A stretch of 64,000 nucleotides of DNA from Thermoguttaceae bacterium (lineage in GTDB: Bacteria; Planctomycetota; Planctomycetia; Pirellulales; Thermoguttaceae), in contig JAFQXE010000045.1 in NCBI GenBank assembly GCA_017407125.1, positions 248,001 through 312,000 of the forward strand, read 5' to 3'. Numbering within the stretch: the first letter of the stretch is position 1; every line of letters starts with the position of its first letter. The notes below the pieces were generated by a model, which saw only the letters and a program-made list of their open reading frames with translations, made no database searches and had not been told where the DNA came from. Positions 1 through 12,141 of this stretch are shown here, piece after piece. Position numbers and translations under genes: made by a program.

Positions 1-309
1 CACCGGTGTTCGAATTTCCGAAGCGGTCAAATCTTCTTTTTCCGCGCTGATTGGGAACGGATGGGTCATGCCGGGGTTAATGCCCCCGCTTGTTGATATG
101 CGGAAATGGAGGACGGCATTGGTTTCCGTTAGGTTGATGCTGGACAGGTAATCAAGGAATTCGTCGAGATTCATGAATCCTTTTTTGATTTGAACGGCAT
201 CGCCATCCATAAAAGCGATCCCGGCGCCGTGTGGGTTTTTTGCCCAGCATTTTCTGATGGTGTCAATGGAGATTTGAACTCCTGCAGGTTTAACAACGAT
301 TACGCACAT
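1..309 (-). CDS. class II glutamine-amidotransferase-like protein, partial (C-terminus outside window)
   Basis: An open minus-strand frame starts at 309 and runs off the left edge, giving 103 residues. It begins MCVIVVKPAG, so a cysteine sits at position 2 where the N-terminal nucleophile of class II glutamine amidotransferases (Ntn hydrolases) lies after Met removal. The following KNPHGAGIAFMD and VLHFRISTSGG segments fit the fold: the NP-GAG turn and the LxHxRxxTxG strand that binds glutamine. Phage and plasmid proteins of this type are common. A ribosome binding site AAGGA lies just upstream of the ATG. The gene shares its strand with an amidoligase at 1136-1999, and the two could work together as ammonia donor and ligase; this pairing is inferred. 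The catalytic role cannot be tested on a partial protein. Confidence 0.68.
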   Translation of the reverse strand, partial: MCVIVVKPAGVQISIDTIRKCWAKNPHGAGIAFMDGDAVQIKKGFMNLDEFLDYLSSINLTETNAVLHFRISTSGGINPGMTHPFPISAEKEDLTASEIRTPV

Positions 310-413
310 TTTCGATTTCCTTTCTGATTTTGGTTGAGTTTGGTTTGGTTTCTATTGGTTGATGGTGGGGCGTTTGTCAAGCTGACCGCCGCCCCGTCGT
401 TTCGGAGTTTGGT

Positions 414-650
414 TTATCCGAGATTGATGTCTCCCTCTTTTCGAATCATTCGGAAACGCATAGTTTTTCCGTCGTCGCTGATTTTTTGAAGAACGGCGCC
501 TCCAAGTGCGCCATCTTTCATTGCACGGTCGATGATGCGATTTGCTTGTTCTTCGGTTTCGCACTCGAATCCATAATGGTCGGGTTTGAATTTGCCTTCG
601 CTAAATTCCTGCGTTGGCTTGGCGTGAATGAATGCGGTGTAGGGTTTCAT
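414..650 (-). CDS. small hypothetical protein (78 aa)
   Basis: A 78-residue protein starting MKPYTAFIHAKP and ending KEGDINLG. I recognise no family. It is mixed alpha/beta in character, with a helix-like EEQANRIIDRAMKDG segment followed by a strand-turn-strand (GAVLQKISDDGKTMRFRMI). No signal peptide, membrane segment or cysteine pair is seen apart from one Cys. It lies between the amidotransferase-like gene and the amidoligase on the same strand. Its start codon is preceded by a leader of about 120 nt that is repeated in front of the amidoligase, which supports it being a real gene of the same element. The start lacks a clear Shine-Dalgarno; the sequence before it is AAAGAAAGAAAACCAAC. Confidence 0.55.
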   Translation of the reverse strand: MKPYTAFIHAKPTQEFSEGKFKPDHYGFECETEEQANRIIDRAMKDGALGGAVLQKISDDGKTMRFRMIRKEGDINLG

Positions 651-652
651 GT

Positions 653-785
653 TGGTTTTCTTTCTTTGCCACGAAAGGGCGGTTAAGGTTTTGTTTTCGA
701 TTGGCGCTTGTTTTCCCCGACGCCTGTGCTTATAATTACGATTTAGAATCGCTTTCTGCCACTCTTTTTTGCAAAGTGAAGGGAA
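653..785 (-). promoter_or_regulatory. conserved leader, copy A
   Basis: Read on the minus strand this segment holds AAAAGAGTGGC, then ATCGTAATTATAAGCAC, then AAAACAAAACCTTAACCGCC, and ends at the start codon of the 78-residue gene. The same ordered blocks occur at 1999-2130 before the amidoligase. TAATTATAAG may be a -10 region. What the leader does is unknown; a shared promoter plus untranslated leader is the simplest reading. Confidence 0.5.
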
Positions 786-1135
786 AAATCAAATAATTTT
801 TTGTTTGCTCCGTTTGGCGTGACGTTGCCGTCGTTCCACCAGCGAAACGACACCAATATATAGGTTTACCCCATTTCCAATCGCGTCAACAAACGGCAAT
901 GTTGGCGTTACATGCGCCGTTGGTTGGCTTTTTACCCCCGCTTGACAGAGAGGTTCTTTCTTTTATAATCAGGCTGTTCTGATTTTGGAACAACCGCCCA
1001 CCCCTGCTTTTCGATTTTTTCGGGGTGGGTTTTTATTTGGTTTTTCTGACCCGCAACGTTCGCACACGTTGCCCTGCGTGGCACAGGAAGGGCGTCCCCT
1101 AGGGGAAACCCTCCCGCCTCGTTCACGCCCGTTTA
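786..1135. other. non-coding stretch after the amidoligase gene
   Basis: No convincing gene is seen. A G/C hairpin (arms CCCACCCC and GGGGTGGG near 1008-1032, followed by TTTTT on the plus strand) looks terminator-like. A TATAGGTTT motif lies at about 861, one of four in this element. A 64-residue minus-strand frame at 932-1126 is judged spurious. Confidence 0.4.
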
Positions 1136-1999
1136 TCAGGCGTTTTCGCCTTCGTATTTGTTAATCAGTCTCGTGAACTCGTGAATAATCTCCTCGCGCG
1201 GGATTGGGGAACCGTCGATTAAGCCGTTGCTCTTGCCCTTCTTAATCTGGAAAGGATACCAGCCGAGGTATCGGCGAAGTGTGAAAAGCGCGTAGGTCGA
1301 TTCTTGGTTTTGAAACGCCCGTGCCGTGAATTCGGGATTCTTCTTCCTGTCCCACTTTGCTCGGCGAACGCCATTCTTGGCTTTTTGAACCAGCCCCACG
1401 CAGACCTGAATCCAGCCGATGATTTTGACCGGGTTAAGGGAGCCGGAAAAAGCTCGGAATTCGACCCGGTCTTCGCCGCTCGACAAATTTGTCAGGTTGA
1501 GGAGATGGTATCGGCATCCGAACAGACCGTTGCGAGCGTTTGAAACGTTCTGGTATTGTTTGACCGAATTGCACCAGCGTCCAGTCTCCCGGTTGTGCGT
1601 CCCGGTAATTGCATAAATGGCGTCTTCGATGTAGGAAACTCCCGTAATCAGGCGAGCCATCGCTTCGCTGGAGGTTTGCCGTCCCCAATCGACGCTGACG
1701 TGAACGCCGGTGGATTCGTTGACCTTGAAGCCCTTCGCTTGGAGCGTTTTGCAAACCTGATAAACTTGGTTCAGACCATCGGCACCCTTGAGGATGGGGC
1801 TGACAATCTCGCACGCTCTGTATCCCCGGCGCGTTTCGATGCTACCGTCGTGTCCTGCTTTCCATCCGGCTGGCAGGAAGTCAACCGCTATTGGACAATG
1901 GTAGGAACCGATGTTCATGTGCAGTGTGTTGGGGGCGATGGTTTCGATTTCAACTCCGAATCGAATGTCGTTGGCGGTCAATGTTCTTTGTTGTGTCAT
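1136..1999 (-). CDS. amidoligase-family protein (glutamine-synthetase-like fold)
   Basis: A 287-residue protein. The N-terminal FGVEIET strand-acid motif, the central STGVHVSVDWG segment (the GxHxH-like metal/ATP strand) and the later RVEFRAFSGSLNP segment are the ordered motifs of the Amidoligase_2 type (GCS2/glutamine-synthetase fold). That family is predicted to form amide or peptide bonds with ATP. No signal peptide is present, so it should be cytosolic. It lies on the same strand as the amidotransferase-like gene at 1-309, with a small unknown gene between them. The start is ATG at 1999, directly behind the conserved leader copy B and without a clear Shine-Dalgarno. The substrate cannot be told from the sequence. 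The location beside an integration footprint suggests it came with a mobile element. Confidence 0.72.
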   Translation of the reverse strand: MTQQRTLTANDIRFGVEIETIAPNTLHMNIGSYHCPIAVDFLPAGWKAGHDGSIETRRGYRACEIVSPILKGADGLNQVYQVCKTLQAKGFKVNESTGVHVSVDWGRQTSSEAMARLITGVSYIEDAIYAITGTHNRETGRWCNSVKQYQNVSNARNGLFGCRYHLLNLTNLSSGEDRVEFRAFSGSLNPVKIIGWIQVCVGLVQKAKNGVRRAKWDRKKNPEFTARAFQNQESTYALFTLRRYLGWYPFQIKKGKSNGLIDGSPIPREEIIHEFTRLINKYEGENA

Positions 2000-2130
2000 G
2001 GTTTTCTTTCGTTTGCCCTTTGGGCGGTTAAGGTTTTGTTTGGTACTGTTTTGCGCTTGGCTTTGCCTTGCGCTTGTGCTTATAATTACGATTTTGTTGG
2101 CGTTTGCGCCACTCTTTTTTTGCCTTTTTT
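2000..2130 (-). promoter_or_regulatory. conserved leader, copy B, plus a partial copy C to about 2250
   Basis: This repeats the blocks of copy A (GAGTGGCG, AATCGTAATTATAAGCAC, AAAACAAAACCTTAACCGCC, GAAAGAAAACC) and ends at the amidoligase ATG. A weaker third copy (AAAAGAGCGTCAGC, AACCGTAATAATAGACGCC) lies at about 2160-2220 directly upstream, with no gene between B and C. Confidence 0.5.
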
Positions 2131-2229
2131 TAAGGTTTTTTTAAAGTTTTTTTGCTTCGGGTTTTCCTCCCGAAGGCGTCTATTATTACGGTTTTCTGCC
2201 CCGTGCTGACGCTCTTTTTTTCGTTTTAT

Positions 2230-3287
2230 TTTCGTTTTTTTCAAAGGTCATTTGCGGTTTGTTTTCCGCTTTTGTTTACATTACTAATAACGGACAAACC
2301 GCGAGAATAGTTACCTAAAAATCTCGATATTTTGAAAAAAAGTTGAAAATTTATTTTTATCTAAGTCGTTTGATAGAAACTGGTTAGAAAAAAATTCAAT
2401 GTCGTCCTGCGTGACGCGACACGTTGCACAGCATTCGCGAGAAGGGCATGGTTTAAAGCTATAGGTTTGATGCAGAAATAAAGCGGACAGAGGGCGATGT
2501 GCGCGATATTTTTATATTCATTAAAGCAAATTAAAATGTTACATCAGCTTTCATTGCTAAATCAAGTCAACTTAATAAATTTGAAAACCTGATGAATTAA
2601 TAGAATTTGATCCATTTAATTTTTCTGATAAAAAAAGAGAAGAACATTATCAGCTAATGATGATGAATCAGAATATCCCGACAGTGTTCTCAACATACCG
2701 TTAAGGAACTTTTTGGGGCTTTATTGAACCTGTCAAAAAAGAAGAATTTATTTTAATCACTGGAAGCGGATTAATCATGTTTATGTGATTCATTAGATTA
2801 AATTGATTAATCAAAGAGAGCTGATTTATTAGAGTTTTCTGATTTATCAAATGAGGTTGATTAAAAGAAAATCACGTCTTCCAAAGAATCGGACATGCCC
2901 CCGACAAGCCCCAACGTTATAGGTTGCCTGCCACCGGTGGCGCCCCACACTTGCGAACGTTCGCACGGTTTTCGCCTCAACGAACTATAGGTTTCCTCGC
3001 CACCGGGAAGTCGGAAAAGAAAACGTGTGCAAACGACGACAACAGTTAGAAGAGAACTTTGATAAAAAAGAGACTACCCCCAAGAATTCTGGAATTTTGG
3101 AATTCTGGAATTACGGCAAACATATCATTATAGATTTTTCGTTCACATTGGTTCACAAACCAGCATAAAAATGCCCCCTTTTTGAACAACTTTTGGTCTT
3201 GACCTAAAATCCAGAATTTGCTAAATATCCCTTGTTTTTAAGGGTAAATGTCCCAATTATTATTCTGTCATACCGAGAGCGCCTTCA
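2230..3287. other. gene-free AT-rich end of the integrated element
   Basis: No gene is seen. The region contains many TGATTAAT/CTGATTTAT-like words between 2560 and 2880, including the 12-bp palindrome TTGATTAATCAA at 2803-2814. It also contains two near-identical 20-bp words (TATAGGTTGCCTGCCACCGG at 2918-2937 and a variant at 2986-3005) and the palindrome CGAACGTTCG near 2954. Such clusters near an attachment site could be recombinase or replication protein binding sites; this is inference. Confidence 0.4.
2918..3005 (+). repeat. pair of 20-bp direct repeats near the attachment site
   Basis: TATAGGTTGCCTGCCACCGG at 2918-2937 and TATAGGTTTCCTCGCCACCGG-like at 2986-3006. The TATAGGTTT core also occurs near 861 and 2461. 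It may be an arm-type recombinase site. Confidence 0.4.
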
Positions 3288-3329
3288 TTCCTAAACCGAA
3301 GGTCGTCGGTTCGAATCCGACCTCGGATA
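3288..3329 (+). other. 3' half of tRNA-Arg(CCU): probable attachment site of the element to the left
   Basis: Folding from the anticodon loop gives loop TTCCTAA (anticodon CCT), 3' anticodon arm ACCGA, variable loop AGGTC, T stem GTCGG/CCGAC closing loop TTCGAAT, 3' acceptor strand CTCGGAT and discriminator A at 3329. No matching 5' half (anticodon arm TCGGT, D arm, acceptor ATCCGAG) is found upstream. Elements that integrate into tRNA genes typically duplicate the segment from the anticodon loop to the 3' end. The plus orientation puts the element on the left side (1-3287) and the intact tRNA gene outside the window. Confidence 0.65.
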
Positions 3330-3333
3330 GTTT

Positions 3334-3421
3334 TAAAGTGGTAAGTTGTAAGTAGTTAGTGGTAAGGACGCAAAGCGCTCATCTTACTTACCACTTACCA
3401 CTAACCACTCTCTCACTACCC
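3334..3421. repeat. short word array (GTGGTAAG/GTTAGTG type), inverted
   Basis: Iterated words GTGGTAAGTTGTAAG and GTTAGTGGTAAG face their complements CTTACCACTTACCACTAAC across a 30-bp spacer, so the array can fold into a long hairpin. It begins 8 bp past the stop codon of the large minus-strand gene at 3429. Confidence 0.6.
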
Positions 3422-3428
3422 ATTATAC

Positions 3429-6400
3429 TCATTTCTCCAGTTCTTTCCAGTACCGGTTGATTTTCTCTTGATAGCCCGGCAGAGGAATCGGTTTTGTATC
3501 TATCGGGAACGCCTGTTGGATTTCCGGTGGAAGCTCGCCCCAGATGCGTCGCTTTAACGCCTCAGCTTGAGCGTCTGAAAGTTGCTGAGACTCTCCGTCA
3601 GACGTTTTCTCGCCCGCGCCCGGCGCTGAGGCGTCTAATGTCTTTTCGTCGTCGGCGTTCTCGTTCTTGTTTTGTGCGTCCTGATTCTCCTTGCCCGACT
3701 CAGGCGTTTTGCTGTTGTCGTCCTTCTGTTTGCTTCGGGAAAACGACAGCTGATTGATAAACGAAATAAAATGATCGCAAATCTGTTCCTGCAGTCCCTG
3801 ATTGATTTCGCCGGCGTCGCGGAGCTTGAACAGTTCGTACGTCTGCCGCATGAGCCGGACGATTTCCAGCAGCGGCGCGTCCTCCTCCGAAACGGCGGCG
3901 GTTCCCAACTCGTTCCAAACCGTATCGAGGAACTCCTGTTCTTTTCGCTTTTGTTCCCGTTCCGCTTTTTGAGCGTCGGTAAGATTCTCCTCAACCTCGG
4001 CGGTCAGGTCGCCCAGCAAGGCGTCGTCAAGTTCGTCGGGAGAATCGGCGTCTTTCGGACGCTCGCCGCGAAGCAGTTCCGGCGAAACAGTAACAGTCGT
4101 TAAAAACCACGTCAACGACGCCAGTCGCTGCTGTCTGTCCGCCAGGACTGCGGCAGACTCTTCCGAAAGCGTCATCGACCCGGCGTCCAGAGCGTCGGCG
4201 TACGCCTGACGCGTCAGCTCCAAAACCTGACGCTGCTGCAATTCCAGCAGTTTCAAGTCCTCAATAGAAACCTTGCTCTGCGGTTTGCCCTCGTCTGGAT
4301 TGTCGGCAGAATCCAGCTGAGCGTCTTCCGATTCATTAGCTCTGTTCATCGCCAGAATTGCCAGCTGTTCCGCTTCGTTGAGCGTAGCGAGAATCTGCTC
4401 TAACCGCTCTGTCGCCTCGTTTTGACAGACGGCAACGTTTTCTGCGCTTTGTCCTTGCTGAATGAACTCGGCGGCTTGAACCATATACGCTCGAGCTTGT
4501 AACAGAGTATCTGTTACAACGGTCATGTTGGGAGCGTCCAGCGTCCCGACCCTGTCAGCCAATTCCTGCTGACGGCTTGCCAGCGTCGCCGTTTCGTTGT
4601 TGTCGGTTTCCTTTTGAATGGACTTGACCGCCTCGTTGAGCGTTACCTGCTGATCGTAAATCTGTTCGACTTCCGCCTTGAGTTCCAGCCGCTTTTGCGC
4701 GGCATCGTCTCCGGAGGCTGAGAGAATCGCCCAGGCTCGGTCATAGATTTCCCGTAAATGGACGATAGCCGCGCTGGCGCTGACCGCGTTGTTCGTCTCC
4801 AGAGCCTGAGCGTAGACCGGACGCAGCAGCGGGGCGTCAAGAACTTTCACCGTTTGCTGTAACGCCGCTGACCATTTTGCCGCCTGCGGCTGGGATTCCG
4901 TTTGCTCGTATGCCGCCGCGGATTCCGACGCCTGAACCAGCCACGCCTGCGTCTGAACAGCCGTCTGCGGAACGACGGTCGCGACAGACTCAATCGTCTC
5001 CGGCGTCATTCCGTTTCTGATTTGCTTTTCAAGGGACAAAACTGTGTGACGAATCTCCCGGAACGACTCGCACAGTTCCCGATACTGGCGCCATTGACCA
5101 AACGAGTCCGCCGCCAGCGTCAGTTCGTCAGACAGCTTTTGGATGAGTTCTTTCAGACGGCTTTGTGCGTTCCGGTCGGACGCGTCCAAAGTGAGAATCG
5201 AGAAAAGCCGGGCGATTTCGTCGTGGTACTGCGACTGCAGTTTTTCCAGCCGCCGCCCCGCCGACTCGAGGTCGACAAGCGTTCTGCCCCACGGCGCATG
5301 GTTCATCTTGACCCGTTCGACCAGCGCCGCCAGCTGACCGCGAACGCCGTCTTTCTCGCCCCACGTCTGCCGGGCGAACTCGTCGTACAGCCCCGCCGCC
5401 GCTGCCGGGTTCGATTCGTTTTGCGCCTTGGAAAGCGTGTCGAGCGCCCGCCGCAGCTCCGAACCGATTCGGATTCGGGCGGCAACGAGAATCTGGTTGA
5501 GTTCGTCCGCTGTTACAACTTTCAGGCGAAGCAAAGCGCTGTCGCCTTCTTCCATGCGGGTGTCAACCGCCTGCGCCATCACGTCCAGCTGAGCGCCCGG
5601 CTGAAGCTCCATGGTCGACAAATTCAGAGCGGTCGTTTCCGTTCGTTCCTTCGGCGGACGCTTAATCGACTCGTCCTGAAACGCGTCCCAAACCGGCTGG
5701 CGCTGATACACAATTTTCGCCGGCTTGACTCCCGTCTGGATTTCCTCCGGCTTGAGAATTCGCCATCGCACCGACGTTGACACGACCCCGTAATCGTCCG
5801 ACGAACGGATTTCCAGCGGTATCAGGGCGTCCGCCACGACTTCCATATCCGGCATTTGACACGCGATCAGTTCCGCTTTCGGCGCTTCGTCCGGCGTAAC
5901 GTCGATTGTACGCCATATCGTCTCACAGGTCGAGGATAGTTCTTTTTCTTTATCTTCGGACGAAATAAACGCTCTGTATTGAGCGGACGAGTTCCAGCGT
6001 CGTTCCGCTTTATAGACATTTCCGACGATGTTCGGATTTTCCAGAGGAATTGTTTCCTGCGAGTTATCGTCGTTATTAATTATCTGTATTGACGCCTGCA
6101 TATTGTCAACAGCGTTCTCAATTGTTACAGTAAATCGAACTGTCGAACCGGCAGGGACAACAGCGTCCTCGTTAGAGGGAACGTCGAACGCGCCGGTCAT
6201 CGTCGCCGCTGGCGGGATTACTCGAATGGTTACGGATTCCAGACTCGGGAAATTCCGTTCCTGTTGCGATTTAACGTATCGCGGATCAAGCAGACGCGGC
6301 TCTATAATCAACGCCGAAAAGATGACTGTCAGGAACACGGTTGCCGCAATCAATTCTATTATCCAACGAAGCAGGGGAAGCTGACTCATCAGCCATTTAT

Positions 6401-6860
6401 CAAGCCGCCCGGCTTTAAGCGATTGGTCTGCGTTGGCAACGGCTGCCTGCGTAAGCTCAATGCTTTCAGAGTTAGAAAAGAGTTGCGAGTTGCGAGTTGC
6501 GAGTTGCGAGGAAGATTTTTCTGCTTCCAACTCCTTATTCCTAACTCTTAACTTTTCACTAAATTCCAACGCCGCTGTCAGTTCGCCGGGGCGCATTCCA
6601 AGATACTGTTCCATCGAGGACGCAGCATTTTGAATCTTCTTTCTTGCTCGTAACAGCAAAGCAGTCAAAAAAGCGGCGCTTAGAACGATTTCCAAAATCA
6701 GAATATCGGCGCTGGTTTGAATTGAGAATTTATAGTAGTAATCGGCGACGCCGGCAATAAACCCTAACGTCAGGAAAAAGACAAACGTCTCCCAAATCGC
6801 GCCGAGAATCGTCACGGCGGTCAACGCATTTCGCCAGGAATAAAATCGGGATAACGGCAT
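3429..6860 (-). CDS. large membrane-anchored coiled-coil protein of the MoxR/VWA cluster (DUF4175-like)
   Basis: An 1143-residue protein. Hydrophobic segments at about 13-36, 48-68 and 157-185 anchor it, and a beta-rich part follows (about 200-370). The rest is long helical, coiled-coil, acidic sequence, ending in a conserved-looking tail (WGELPPEIQQAF, LPGYQEKINRYW). Membrane helices followed by a very large periplasmic helical region next to BatA/VWA and MoxR genes resemble DUF4175-type proteins; I give this as a resemblance only. It is the last gene of the MoxR-DUF58-BatA run, 155 bp after the BatA gene. Residues about 101-135 are encoded by intergenic-type word repeats (GCGAGTT units giving SSQLATRNSQL), so a repeat array seems to have entered the frame without breaking it. 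Confidence 0.7.
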   Translation of the reverse strand: MPLSRFYSWRNALTAVTILGAIWETFVFFLTLGFIAGVADYYYKFSIQTSADILILEIVLSAAFLTALLLRARKKIQNAASSMEQYLGMRPGELTAALEFSEKLRVRNKELEAEKSSSQLATRNSQLFSNSESIELTQAAVANADQSLKAGRLDKWLMSQLPLLRWIIELIAATVFLTVIFSALIIEPRLLDPRYVKSQQERNFPSLESVTIRVIPPAATMTGAFDVPSNEDAVVPAGSTVRFTVTIENAVDNMQASIQIINNDDNSQETIPLENPNIVGNVYKAERRWNSSAQYRAFISSEDKEKELSSTCETIWRTIDVTPDEAPKAELIACQMPDMEVVADALIPLEIRSSDDYGVVSTSVRWRILKPEEIQTGVKPAKIVYQRQPVWDAFQDESIKRPPKERTETTALNLSTMELQPGAQLDVMAQAVDTRMEEGDSALLRLKVVTADELNQILVAARIRIGSELRRALDTLSKAQNESNPAAAAGLYDEFARQTWGEKDGVRGQLAALVERVKMNHAPWGRTLVDLESAGRRLEKLQSQYHDEIARLFSILTLDASDRNAQSRLKELIQKLSDELTLAADSFGQWRQYRELCESFREIRHTVLSLEKQIRNGMTPETIESVATVVPQTAVQTQAWLVQASESAAAYEQTESQPQAAKWSAALQQTVKVLDAPLLRPVYAQALETNNAVSASAAIVHLREIYDRAWAILSASGDDAAQKRLELKAEVEQIYDQQVTLNEAVKSIQKETDNNETATLASRQQELADRVGTLDAPNMTVVTDTLLQARAYMVQAAEFIQQGQSAENVAVCQNEATERLEQILATLNEAEQLAILAMNRANESEDAQLDSADNPDEGKPQSKVSIEDLKLLELQQRQVLELTRQAYADALDAGSMTLSEESAAVLADRQQRLASLTWFLTTVTVSPELLRGERPKDADSPDELDDALLGDLTAEVEENLTDAQKAEREQKRKEQEFLDTVWNELGTAAVSEEDAPLLEIVRLMRQTYELFKLRDAGEINQGLQEQICDHFISFINQLSFSRSKQKDDNSKTPESGKENQDAQNKNENADDEKTLDASAPGAGEKTSDGESQQLSDAQAEALKRRIWGELPPEIQQAFPIDTKPIPLPGYQEKINRYWKELEK
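6478..6560. repeat. word array inside a coding region (GCGAGTT and TAACTCT types)
   Basis: Four GAGTTGC units are followed by AACTCCTTATTCCTAACTCT words. The same words occur between genes at about 7741, 23030, 39390 and 45140. The reading frame stays open through the array. Confidence 0.7.
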
Positions 6861-7015: not shown

Positions 7016-9934
7016 TCATTTCAAGTACAGTCTCGACCAGTCAAACAGGAGGACGGCGAGTAAAAGCGCCAGGAGCCAAAATTGATTCCATATCGCAACG
7101 GGCGGGCGGACGACGCGAACCCGGGGCGCGTCTGGACGTACGGCGTCGAGGATGGATTGGCTGTCTGCTGGGCGGAACGCGAACCCGCCGGTCGGCTTGC
7201 ACATTTCCGACAACGCAGCGGAATTGGCGCTGGTGTTACGCCATTCTTCCGGAACGACAGCGTCCTCGACCGGCTTTTCAACGCGGCTGTCGGCAGACGG
7301 CTTGACCATCGCTCGAACGAGGTTGATTTGGAACTGGGTGTAAATCGCCTCGCCGGCTCCCTGACGCCAACGCCACAGGGAATCCGTCAAAACGGTTGCG
7401 ACGCGAACGTTTCCAACGTCGTGAACCGTCAGCAGCGGCGAGGCGTTATCCGCTGTCGTTAGCAGGGTTTGGACGTTCGCTTTAAGCTGTTTGACCGAAA
7501 CGACGGCTCCCAGCGGCGGCAGGGTTGACCAGTCAAATTTGTCTTTTGACGACAACTGAAGCCAGGCGGTTGTCTGTCCCAGCGGGGAAATCGCCGCAGC
7601 GCTGCGAATCTTCCCGGACGGGGCGGATGCCGCGCTGACGTCAAACGGAATCAAGCGGCCGTCCAGCGCCGCAACAGGCGCAAAGTCCGTCTGAGCGTTC
7701 CAAAAACATATAATCGCCTTTCTGGTTGAATTCTCTCGCAACTCGCTGCTCGCAACTCGCAACTCGGGAGAGAAATACTCCCGCAGCGAGTCTCTCTGCT
7801 GAGCGCTCAGCCAGTCCAAAACGGGATTGATAAAAATCAGGGCGTCGAATTCGTTGAGGCTTTCCGCCGAGGTCGGGAACGATTCCAAAGCGCAGGAATC
7901 CTCTTTGACGTATTCCTTGGACGCGTTTTGTAACACAACGGACAGCTTGACCATGCCCGTCCTCGCCAAGAGATTTCGCAAATACCGGAACTCCCAGCAG
8001 GGCGACCCGGAAACGAGCAGAACCCGAATCTGCCGTTCTTCCGCTTCCGCCTGACGCGTAACCGCGTTATCCGCCTGAATAAACTCGTCGTCCCGGTTGA
8101 CGATTTGCAGCTTGTACTCGTACGCGCCCGGCTCCGGAGGAACCACCTTAAACGACTGCTCCGCAACGAATTGCGGCGACGGAATTTTGATTTCTTTCGA
8201 ACCTGTAACCCTCGGTTCCGAAGACCGGCGCTCTTTTTCTGTCAATTCAACCTTAACGGTTTTTCCCTGCAAGCCGTCGGCGCGAAGCTGGAATTCCAGC
8301 TCGTTTTCGTGTCCGGCAAAGAGAACGGAGTCCAGCTTGACGTTTTCTATTGCTGCGTTGGGAATCGGGTTGTCCTGTCCCAGCGCCAAGGCGAAAACCT
8401 TCGGATTGACGCCGGACTGTCGCTGACGGACAAGGATTTGTTCTGAATCCGGCGCTGGCTGACCGACCGTTACGCCGTCGGAAAGGATAAACGCGGCGGA
8501 AAGCGTCTGACGGTCAATTTGAGAACTCAACGTCTCGACGCCATGCGCCAGCGCGCCTGCGGGGTCGGACGTTGGGGCGTCCGCCGATCGTTTCTCTAAC
8601 GTCGTTTTCCAGTCCGCAGCGTTTGTAATTTCCGTAACCGCGTCCGGGGAGCTGAACGAACTCTCAAAGAGACGATAATTCTGTAACAGCTTTTCCAGAG
8701 CGTCTGTATTCTTATCCACCCATTGAACCATCGCCTGATTTCGGGTCTGAGCGTCGCCGGGCAGCTGCGGCAAGTTCATGCTTTGCGAATCGTCATCCAG
8801 AAAGAGGATCGACGGCTTGACCCACACGACAGGCTTAAACGTCGCCTGAATCGCCATGATGAACAAAATCGCGCCCGCCGCAATAAAGCAAACCCAGCCC
8901 CACCGCCGTTCCCGCTGCGAATATCGGCTCGGCTTCCGCCCGAATCGCCAAAAGAGCGTTACAAGGATAACGAGACCCGCAATAGCTAATACTCTTGATA
9001 ACCAAGTCGTTCCGGGTTTGTATTCAATTGTCGAACTTGTCGACGGAGCGGAAAGAGAAATCGTTACAATTCTGTCCAGCAGCGGCACCCATAAATCGCT
9101 CATGGACCAGGCGGACTGCGTTCCATCTACGGAGGACGAAAAGACCCAGACGCCGTCGCGGGAAAGGATTGTCGAGCTGTCGGAAAAAGCCGCTGACCAG
9201 CCGGCGGTCGATTCGTAAACGCTGTTAATCAGCGACGGGAACGGAACTGGCTTTCCCGCAAGCGGTTCAAAGTCCGGCGTCTGCCACAGCAGACTGCGGG
9301 GATTGAGCGTTTCATACGGTTGCGCCGTTTTAGACGGTTCCCCTGCCAGCGGCGGCAATGCGTCTTTTAACAGTTGGCGTGACGAATCGTCCAAATTATG
9401 CGGGGCGAAAATCCAGACTGGGCGGCGTTCCGTTCCCCGATTTTCCACGACTTTCGCCAGCCATTGCGGGACGCTGCGAACCCTGTGCAGAATCAGGACG
9501 TCTGCGTTTTGAGCTGTTGTCGGGTTGGCAGCGTCAGGCGTCAAAACGTCAAAGCGGACGTCTTTTCCGAGTTGTTCAAATCCCGCCTTGAAATACGCTG
9601 GGGCGTTGGTCGAGGCGTCGTCTACAATCAGGTAAACGCTGTGCAGTTCCGCCGGGGCGTTGGTTTGCGAGTTGGGAACCTCGGTCTGCTGGGAGACGTA
9701 AAACACGGGTTGAGCCACCAGAACGACAGCCAGCAGAATCAGCGCGGTTTGCAGAATCAGCTGAACGACGTCGGACTGTTTTTGCTTGGGCGCCGCCGTC
9801 TTGTACGCCTGTAACAAAATGTCCATAGCCGCCCAGTCGCGGCGTTCCGTCCAGCGGCGTCGAAGCCAGTACAGAACCAACGGCGCCAGCGCAAGCGGGA
9901 GAGTCAGCAGAATCCAGGGCTGTAACAGCGTCAT
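7016..9934 (-). CDS. BatA/VWA-type membrane protein with glutamine-amidotransferase-like domain
   Basis: A 972-residue protein. The start is placed at 9934 because this ATG overlaps the stop of the DUF58 gene as ATGA; the longer frame from 10015 would run inside that gene. An N-terminal BatA-like part (LLQPWILLTLPLALAPLVLYWLRRR) is followed by further membrane segments near 55-78, 315-335 and 345-365. A metal-ion-dependent adhesion site DDSQS lies near 378. Next comes a beta-rich stalk and a segment VSGSPCWEFRYLRNLLAR typical of the amidotransferase-like domain in planctomycete VWA proteins. A C-terminal helix (FWLLALLLAVLLFDW) closes the protein. It should sit in the inner membrane with the VWA part outside. 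GCGAGTT-type words code for ELRVASSELREN near residue 725. Confidence 0.8.
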   Translation of the reverse strand: MTLLQPWILLTLPLALAPLVLYWLRRRWTERRDWAAMDILLQAYKTAAPKQKQSDVVQLILQTALILLAVVLVAQPVFYVSQQTEVPNSQTNAPAELHSVYLIVDDASTNAPAYFKAGFEQLGKDVRFDVLTPDAANPTTAQNADVLILHRVRSVPQWLAKVVENRGTERRPVWIFAPHNLDDSSRQLLKDALPPLAGEPSKTAQPYETLNPRSLLWQTPDFEPLAGKPVPFPSLINSVYESTAGWSAAFSDSSTILSRDGVWVFSSSVDGTQSAWSMSDLWVPLLDRIVTISLSAPSTSSTIEYKPGTTWLSRVLAIAGLVILVTLFWRFGRKPSRYSQRERRWGWVCFIAAGAILFIMAIQATFKPVVWVKPSILFLDDDSQSMNLPQLPGDAQTRNQAMVQWVDKNTDALEKLLQNYRLFESSFSSPDAVTEITNAADWKTTLEKRSADAPTSDPAGALAHGVETLSSQIDRQTLSAAFILSDGVTVGQPAPDSEQILVRQRQSGVNPKVFALALGQDNPIPNAAIENVKLDSVLFAGHENELEFQLRADGLQGKTVKVELTEKERRSSEPRVTGSKEIKIPSPQFVAEQSFKVVPPEPGAYEYKLQIVNRDDEFIQADNAVTRQAEAEERQIRVLLVSGSPCWEFRYLRNLLARTGMVKLSVVLQNASKEYVKEDSCALESFPTSAESLNEFDALIFINPVLDWLSAQQRDSLREYFSPELRVASSELRENSTRKAIICFWNAQTDFAPVAALDGRLIPFDVSAASAPSGKIRSAAAISPLGQTTAWLQLSSKDKFDWSTLPPLGAVVSVKQLKANVQTLLTTADNASPLLTVHDVGNVRVATVLTDSLWRWRQGAGEAIYTQFQINLVRAMVKPSADSRVEKPVEDAVVPEEWRNTSANSAALSEMCKPTGGFAFRPADSQSILDAVRPDAPRVRVVRPPVAIWNQFWLLALLLAVLLFDWSRLYLK
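7738..7772. repeat. word array inside a coding region (GCGAGTT type)
   Basis: The words CTCGCTGCTCGCAACTCGC lie in frame in the BatA/VWA gene. They match the intergenic arrays at 23030 and 45140. Confidence 0.65.
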
Positions 9935-10857
9935 GGCGTCCCCCCTCCGCGAAGAATCTGCTCGACTGGAACGTCGGTTGGCGCCAGACGGTACTCGATT
10001 TCCAACGCGCTGCAAATTGACCGGATTGCGCTCAGATGACGTTCCAGCGCTTCCAGATACGCTGTTTTAATCTGTGACGGTTCCGCGTCCAGACCGCGCG
10101 CGTCCAATTCCAAATCGACAAAACGGGTTCTGTTATTAAACGGAAACGTCAACTCGTCCCGGTCGAGGACTTGATAAACGCGGCAGTCGTGTCCCATCGC
10201 GCGAAGCCGTTTCAAGGCGGATTCCACCGATTCCGGCGCGTCGAAGAAGTCGCTGAAAACCAGAACCAGCCCCTTTCTATGCCAGCGCGTTAAGACGTGA
10301 GAAAGCGCAGCGCTAATCGAGGCGTTTCCGTTGGGAAGGCGATTTGTTACAGACGTTTCGTCCAGCGAGTCGAGAAAGGTCATCCATTGATTCAGACCGC
10401 GAAACGGCGCGCTGACGTCGACGTCTTTTCCGGACGCCGCCCAACAGGCGGAATCGTTTTGACGCAGAGCCAAATAGGCGTTGACGCCCGAGAGAATCTG
10501 GGCGTATTCAAACTTGCTCAGCGGGGACGCCGACCTCTTGTACCCCATTCCTGCTGAGGCGTCGAGCAAAATATAGACGCATAAATCGACGTCCTCCTCG
10601 TACTGCCGCACATGCAGTTTGTCGGTTCGAGCGTACACTTTCCAATCGACTCTGCGCAGTTCGTCTCCCGGCGAGTAGGGTCGAAGCTGAGCGAACTCAA
10701 CCGCCAAGCCCTGTCCCGCCCCGCGATGCTCTCCTGCCAGCAAGCCCTCAACAACGCGCCGGCTGCGGAGTTTCAACCCCGACAGCTGAGCCAGCGTCGC
10801 AAGGCTCAAATTGAGCGGAGAGAATTCGTCAGGAAGACGCGCTGCGTTATTATCCAT
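9931..10857 (-). CDS. DUF58 domain protein
   Basis: A 308-residue protein. The hallmark DUF58 stretch lies at about 60-90: RPYSPGDELRRVDWKVYART followed by LHVRQYEEDVD. A VWA-like strand LLDASAGMG comes next near 98; its metal site reads DxSxG in place of DxSxS. DUF58 proteins are regularly encoded beside MoxR ATPases and VWA proteins and are thought to act with them in assembly or maturation of envelope complexes. No signal peptide or membrane helix is seen. The start overlaps the MoxR gene by 8 bp and the stop overlaps the BatA gene by 4 bp, so the three genes are almost certainly co-transcribed and translationally coupled. Confidence 0.88.
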   Translation of the reverse strand: MDNNAARLPDEFSPLNLSLATLAQLSGLKLRSRRVVEGLLAGEHRGAGQGLAVEFAQLRPYSPGDELRRVDWKVYARTDKLHVRQYEEDVDLCVYILLDASAGMGYKRSASPLSKFEYAQILSGVNAYLALRQNDSACWAASGKDVDVSAPFRGLNQWMTFLDSLDETSVTNRLPNGNASISAALSHVLTRWHRKGLVLVFSDFFDAPESVESALKRLRAMGHDCRVYQVLDRDELTFPFNNRTRFVDLELDARGLDAEPSQIKTAYLEALERHLSAIRSICSALEIEYRLAPTDVPVEQILRGGGTP

Positions 10858-11824
10858 TGTCGATTATCTGCTTAACCACTTCGTCTGCGTTGACGTTTTC
10901 CGCCTCCGCATGGAAATTGAGAACGATTCTGTGACGCATTACCAGTGGGGCGACTTTTTTCACGTCTTCCAGCAGCGGATTGACGCGCCCGTCCATCGCC
11001 GCCGCCGCGCGAGCCGCCAGGACAAGATACTGTCCCGCTCGCGGACCCGCTCCCCAGCGAACGTACTGTCGAACGGCGTCACAAGACGTTTCCTCCGGAC
11101 GCGACTGCCGAACGATACTCAGCGCCCGCCGCGCCGTCTGCTCGTCAACCGGCATCGACCTGACCAGCTTTTGGAATTGCCGAATCAGCTCGCCCGACGC
11201 CTGCGCTTTAAGCGGCGCCGATTCCCCCGGCTGACAGCGCAGAATCACTTCCAGCTCGTCCTGTTCGTTGGGATACGTCAGCGGAACGTTGAACATGAAC
11301 CGGTCCAGCTGCGCCTCCGGAAGCGGGTACGTGCCGCCCTGTTCGATGGGGTTTTGCGTGGCGAGAACGAAAAACGGCTTCGGCAGCGCGTACGTCTGCC
11401 CGCCGACGGTCGCCTGACCTTCCTGCATCGCTTCCAGAAGAGCCGCCTGAGTTTTGGGCGGCGTCCGGTTGATCTCGTCCGCCAAAACCAGATTGGCGAA
11501 CAGCGGCCCCTGCTGGAATTTCAAACTCCGGCTGCGGGTCGTTTTGTCTTCCTGAAGGATTTCCGTCCCGATAATATCCGACGGCATCAAATCCGGGGTG
11601 AACTGGATTCGGCTAAACGACAAATTGAGCGTCTGCGCCAGCGAACGAACCAGCAGCGTCTTCGCCAGTCCCGGAACCCCGGTCAGCAAACAGTTCCCGC
11701 CGCACAGCAGGCAGCTAATCAAGGCGTCGATCGTCTGCTCCTGCCCGACAATCGCCCTGGACAGTTCCAATTTAATCGCGCCGCACGTTTCTTTGAGCTT
11801 TTTGAGCGTCTCTACATCCGACAT
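10850..11824 (-). CDS. MoxR-family AAA+ ATPase
   Basis: A 324-residue protein. The start is taken at 11824 (MSDVETLKK) with AAAGGGA upstream. The longer frame adds 66 residues that look like non-coding leader and would be unusual for the family. Walker A GVPGLAKT lies near 45-52 and Walker B LVLADEINRTPP near 108-118. A sensor-1 type ATQNP, the LPEAQLDRF stretch and a C-terminal lid (arginine-rich, AARAAAAMDGR) follow in the usual MoxR order. It is predicted to hydrolyse ATP as a cytosolic ring that remodels client proteins together with the DUF58 and VWA partners encoded directly downstream. Length matches the family. Confidence 0.93.
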   Translation of the reverse strand: MSDVETLKKLKETCGAIKLELSRAIVGQEQTIDALISCLLCGGNCLLTGVPGLAKTLLVRSLAQTLNLSFSRIQFTPDLMPSDIIGTEILQEDKTTRSRSLKFQQGPLFANLVLADEINRTPPKTQAALLEAMQEGQATVGGQTYALPKPFFVLATQNPIEQGGTYPLPEAQLDRFMFNVPLTYPNEQDELEVILRCQPGESAPLKAQASGELIRQFQKLVRSMPVDEQTARRALSIVRQSRPEETSCDAVRQYVRWGAGPRAGQYLVLAARAAAAMDGRVNPLLEDVKKVAPLVMRHRIVLNFHAEAENVNADEVVKQIIDNG

Positions 11825-12141
11825 GGCAATATTCCCTTTAACAGTATTTATTGTCAAAAACAGCTTATATTTTTCCTCGTCTACGACAATATAGCTTATA
11901 TTTCTATATATTAGGACGAAAAAGCAGGAAAATATATAGAAAATGGGGGAGAATGAGGGCTGGAAACCTGGTTTTATAAAGATTTTTAACTCAGGAATTA
12001 ACAAATAAGGGGGAAGCGGCAAGGCACATTTGCTCGAGTACTTACCCTCGAGCGTCTGACAGAATCGTTTCTGCTGGATGCCAGTGCGAAGAGAGCTTTC
12101 TCAACTTCTCTCACTTCCCCTTTTTCAATTTTAACGAATAA

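Follow-up and report, generated by a model that had tools for sequence, protein, structure and literature searches.

Positions 3288-3329 of the window (the whole 64,000-nucleotide stretch analysed here) almost certainly represent an attR site, in which the 3' half of a host tRNA-Arg(CCU) gene was displaced to the right end of a tailed-phage prophage of 89.7 kb when this was inserted by its own integrase. In contig coordinates the fragment is C54:251288-251329 (+). Read from the sequence, it runs TTCCTAA ACCGA AGGTC GTCGG TTCGAAT CCGAC CTCGGAT A and comprises the anticodon loop (CCT at 34-36), the 3' anticodon stem, the variable loop, the T arm, the 3' acceptor strand and the discriminator. The preceding five bases, CTTCA, fail to pair with ACCGA and so leave the anticodon stem incomplete, and no tRNA was found at this position by ARAGORN at its normal cut-off or by Rfam at the gathering score. 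An exact-match search with the 42-mer recovered exactly two copies genome-wide, and a reversed-pattern control gave 0 matches; the 42/42 match is far above chance level. The second copy forms the 3' part of an intact tRNA-Arg(CCU), G000:C54:161532-161604 (+), which shares contig and strand with the fragment and lies 89,725 bases to its left. The first-pass annotation had read these positions as a tRNA-Arg(CCU) 3' half without a 5' half, and both parts of that reading were borne out. To the left of the att core, at window 3276-3283, AGAGCGCC resembles the D-arm side of the tRNA (GATAGAGCGCC) with a one-base offset; it may be coincidence, or else what is left of an attP copy that took in more of the tRNA. 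The features of the locus, in window coordinates unless the contig is named, are given below.

C54:161605-251287, about 89.7 kb, no strand: whole prophage; phage genes between the two tRNA copies, absent in three same-genus relatives.
1..3287, no strand: right-hand 3.3 kb of the prophage, the remainder of which lies left of the window.
1..309 (C54:247749-248309), minus strand: prophage ORF, cut by the window edge and 186 aa in full, matching PHROG 25883 of unknown function.
1136..1999, minus strand: prophage amidoligase gene, 287 aa (Pfam Amidoligase_2, PF12224, E 1.7e-21; PHROG 2443, amidoligase, E 4.8e-27).
3150..3159, plus strand: GGTTCACAAA, which a comparison of the ends also placed at the opposite end of the prophage (C54:161688); it may be an arm site or a Xis site.
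3229..3244, plus strand: palindrome CCCTTGTTTTTAAGGG, candidate integrase arm-type site (P arm); other copy at C54:161614-161629.
3288..3329, plus strand: attR core, displaced 3' half of tRNA-Arg(CCU), from its 42/42 copy in the intact tRNA and the empty sites.
3330..3428, no strand: host flank directly right of attB; in relative G003, GTTTTAAAGTGG... comes straight after the complete tRNA.
3429..6860, minus strand: host gene of 1143 aa that opens the MoxR cluster and is conserved beside the empty site in G001, G002 and G003.
10850..12022, minus strand: host MoxR-type AAA ATPase (Pfam AAA_3, E 6.8e-63, and AAA_lid_2).

A leftward search for an intact tRNA-Arg(CCU) with an integrase, as the first-pass annotation had advised, found both on contig C54 with phage genes in between. 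The integrase ORF (C54:161686-162981, +) starts 81 bases beyond the 3' end of the intact tRNA, inside the interval, and is a tyrosine recombinase (Pfam Phage_integrase, PF00589, E 2.7e-12, above cut-off; PHROG 1, integrase, E 1.9e-18). It carries the family motif Arg...(H/Y)xxR...H...Tyr, the His of HxxR being Tyr in this protein, and R240, YQLR375-378 with H379, H400 and Y409, which we take to be the catalytic set, are invariant in three aligned integrases. The interval also encodes proteins with PHROG matches to TerL (E 7.6e-24), TerS (1.6e-7), portal (2.4e-12), head (5.7e-27) and tape measure (6.8e-9), a RecE-like exonuclease (E 1.1e-78) between integrase and fragment, a RuvC-like resolvase, a replisome organizer, a sigma factor, DNA methyltransferases, a dUTPase and DUF932. 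Judged by its terminase, portal, head and tail genes, the element is thus a tailed-phage (Caudoviricetes-type) prophage. Its GC content (46.4%) separates it weakly from the host (49.9% on the left, 54.6% on the right). The intact tDNA and its cognate downstream 3' fragment share one replicon and one orientation and stand 89.7 kb apart, within the 2-200 kb range used by Islander, a continuity that depends on the assembly of a 57-contig draft (87% complete, 3.4% contamination). Adjoining the integrase is a Panacea/SocA antitoxin-like gene, L004:3265-3918 (C54:163265-163918), with a small partner ORF at 163906-164349, possibly a prophage toxin-antitoxin pair; the amidoligase and the PHROG 25883 protein at the right end could be peptide-modification cargo.

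Three genomes of the same genus, G001, G002 and G003, supplied the uninterrupted site. In each, the left flank, a complete tRNA-Arg(CCU) identical to the G000 copy across all 73 nt, and the right-flank gene are contiguous, with neither fragment nor element DNA at the attB locus. When the flanks of our own locus were joined at the common 42-nt block, the alignment ran through the junction in G003, G001 and G002, and the bases after the tRNA in G003, GTTTTAAAGTGGTAAGTTGTAAGTAGTTAG, are those after the window fragment. Homologues of the 1143-aa gene are 90-91% identical in G001 and G003 and present as two pieces (93% and 81%) in G002; a scan of genome contigs with the host MoxR protein gave distant homologues only, from many phyla. 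A bare fragment in element-free relatives, which the first-pass annotation had named as evidence against its reading, did not occur, because all three have one complete tRNA and no fragment. Its proposals that the fragment marks the right end of a mobile element and separates phage-like genes from the host MoxR cluster were therefore upheld: the 42/42 intact copy, the integrase, the phage genes and three empty sites agree, and the last 3.3 kb of prophage is followed by the MoxR cluster. Hairpins formed by short word repeats in near-tandem array (AGTGGTAAGTTGTAAGTAG..., GAGTTGCGAGTTGCGAG...) were also observed at window 3337-3409, 6480-6510 and 7735-7765 and in the L081-L083 intergenic regions, between genes as well as in frame within two host proteins.

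In the mechanism that we propose, and hold to be almost certain, the prophage integrase (C54:161686-162981) recombined the phage attP with the host tRNA-Arg(CCU) gene. The attP brought with it a 42-nt block identical to the 3' half of the tRNA, and this block completed the tRNA at the left end, now attL (C54:161532-161604), so that the host still has an unbroken gene. The 3' half that the host had originally was displaced by 89.7 kb to its present place next to the MoxR cluster. The predicted attP of the prophage is …CGCCTTCA-TTCCTAA…GGATA-TTGCGATAG…, and the prophage may still be able to excise. That the fragment might instead be a tRNA pseudogene, produced by decay or duplication and with no tie to any element, has next to no probability: partial tRNA genes are common in prokaryotes and the short D-arm-like AGAGCGCC lies just upstream, but the 42/42 identity leaves no trace of decay, the two tRNA copies exactly bracket the integrase and the phage genes, and the empty sites in three relatives, each with one complete tRNA and no fragment, rule it out. 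The same layout could be left by a non-phage integrative island (an ICE or genomic island), as tDNA islands of every kind leave such a signature and many genes of the element are unassigned. Against this, TerL, TerS, portal, head and tape measure genes lie in one module and a close relative is classed as viral in IMG/VR; with these phage genes present we rejected such an island as very improbable, and we retain the prophage inserted by its integrase.

Single-sequence integrase scans of genome contigs and viral contigs gave no confirmed relative, and integrase relatives were reached instead by a TerL scan followed by integrase alignment. IMGVR_UViG_3300031760_000040, a 72-kb viral contig, encodes TerL, portal and integrase proteins 84%, 82% and 55% identical to those of the prophage. 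Its integrase lies mid-contig beside CTCATAATCCCTTGGTTGGGGGTTCGAATCCCTCTGCCCCTA, a 42-base tRNA-Met(CAU) 3' half without a 5' half and therefore an attP; as this attP is in the middle of the contig, the phage is not integrated. The half matches that tRNA in G000, G001 and G002 at 42/42 positions, from the first anticodon-loop base, tRNA position 32, as for Arg(CCU). The contig thus resembles the prophage in the 42-nt tRNA 3' half beside the integrase and in a similar palindrome 3' of the core, and differs in its target, tRNA-Met(CAU), and in not being integrated. A third phage, IMGVR_UViG_3300032030_000166 (integrase 29% identical), has a tRNA-Arg(UCU)-like half that starts at or about the anticodon loop and is a candidate attP. 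An Rfam scan of the attP region of G060 gave chance matches only. At G003:C93, in the same host genus, the integrase (33% identical to that of the prophage) similarly follows the 3' end of an intact tRNA closely, and AAGCCCTTGATTTTCAAGGGCTT occupies the place corresponding to CCCTTGTTTTTAAGGG; the target, however, is another tRNA-Met(CAU).

Where strand exchange took place can be narrowed by these comparisons. Because attL and attR are identical throughout 3288-3329, the crossover can be confined to that interval and no further, whereas the first-pass annotation had placed it in the anticodon loop. The bounds stop short of that claim, but exchange within the seven anticodon-loop bases (TTCCTAA) is well supported on comparative evidence, because identity in the Met(CAU) attP starts at the same tRNA position and the half in the third phage is similar. 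The 42-nt blocks of both Arg(CCU) and Met(CAU) begin at position 32, which corresponds to the anticodon-loop (A) class of att sublocation. The same element could have crossed over further along, within the T arm or else at the 3' terminus, the longer identity merely preserving tRNA function; any point within the 42-nt identity is permitted, and T-arm and junction subsites are common (PMC4383910). A downstream crossover, however, would not need an attP copy of the tRNA from loop position 32 on, and both attPs of known target match from precisely that base, while the third phage half starts at about the loop. We thus regard a downstream crossover as unlikely and favour exchange in the anticodon loop; of the two common Islander classes, one is that of att sites centred on the anticodon (2083 of 3919 islands; PMC4383910).

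The element contains just two copies of the palindrome CCCTTGTTTTTAAGGG: one lies 9 bases beyond the intact tRNA, the other 43 bases short of the displaced half. A word of this length was common to only 1 of 1960 random pairs of 350-nt element segments. Variants of the palindrome, GCCCTTATTTTCAAGGC and AAGCCCTTGATTTTCAAGGGCTT, are similarly spaced next to two related integrases. The simplest reading is that CCCTTGTTTTTAAGGG is likely an arm-type site bound by the integrase, with GGTTCACA as a further candidate; alternatively, it could be a hairpin ending transcription between tRNA and integrase, although no T-run follows it. The integrases of order-level relatives (about 26-30% identical; L038, L039, L040, L042, L044, L045, L047 and L048) also lie mostly just 3' of an intact tRNA, with another conserved block, about GACTTA.GTTACCTGCCGA.GGTCGGCAG, between the two, a candidate for another arm-site family. 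It could be envisaged, though we consider it doubtful, that the phage lineage keeps one integrase design and a conserved palindromic arm site and shifts among host tRNAs by swapping only a 42-nt attP cassette. In this tentative scheme the cassette would extend from anticodon loop to discriminator and the targets would be Arg-CCU, Met-CAU and probably Arg-UCU; if true, the lineage offers a natural series in which to test how the target of an integrase changes.

Pieces of tRNA-Arg were also observed inside a host BatA-like gene (window 7016-10015), with an in-frame internal piece at 8197-8235 (-) and, in the relatives, at L083 8435-8481, L081 6565-6596 and L082 4238-4276. At one common site, the piece is 35/39 identical to tRNA-Arg(UCG) here, with the same form in G001, 47/47 to tRNA-Arg(CCU) in G002, and 30/32 to tRNA-Arg(UCU) in G003. 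At this site, most BatA-like homologues from other genera are either shorter by four residues or gapped differently. An internal-tRNA-segment model run over four genomes and checked against the tRNA list found no other non-tRNA locus in G000. The G002 piece was considered as another att scar and rejected, since it lies within a protein gene and contains tRNA bases absent from attP. Our guess would be that sequence from tRNA-Arg genes was copied repeatedly into a tolerant loop of the protein, independently of the phage.

Exact boundaries are thus fixed for a prophage of 90 kb from a bacterial lineage that has been little sampled, and the case supplies a proven attL/attR/attB set together with the free-phage attP of a near relative, whose exact tRNA match ties an IMG/VR contig to the host genus. 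Its value lies in being clean and precisely bounded, with related integrases that differ in their tRNA targets. Islands and prophages integrated in tDNA at anticodon-type (A) att sites were reportedly treated by Williams in 2002. The mechanism of insertion is ordinary and its principle well known, and it is here well documented. An intact tRNA with a displaced fragment is the signature of tDNA islands in Islander (PMC4383910), and like these the prophage has a regenerated tRNA at one end and a displaced 3' fragment in the same orientation at the other, a tyrosine integrase adjoining the intact tRNA, and identity that begins in the anticodon loop. It differs from them only in host, phage lineage and its tRNA-Arg(CCU) target, the mechanism being unchanged.
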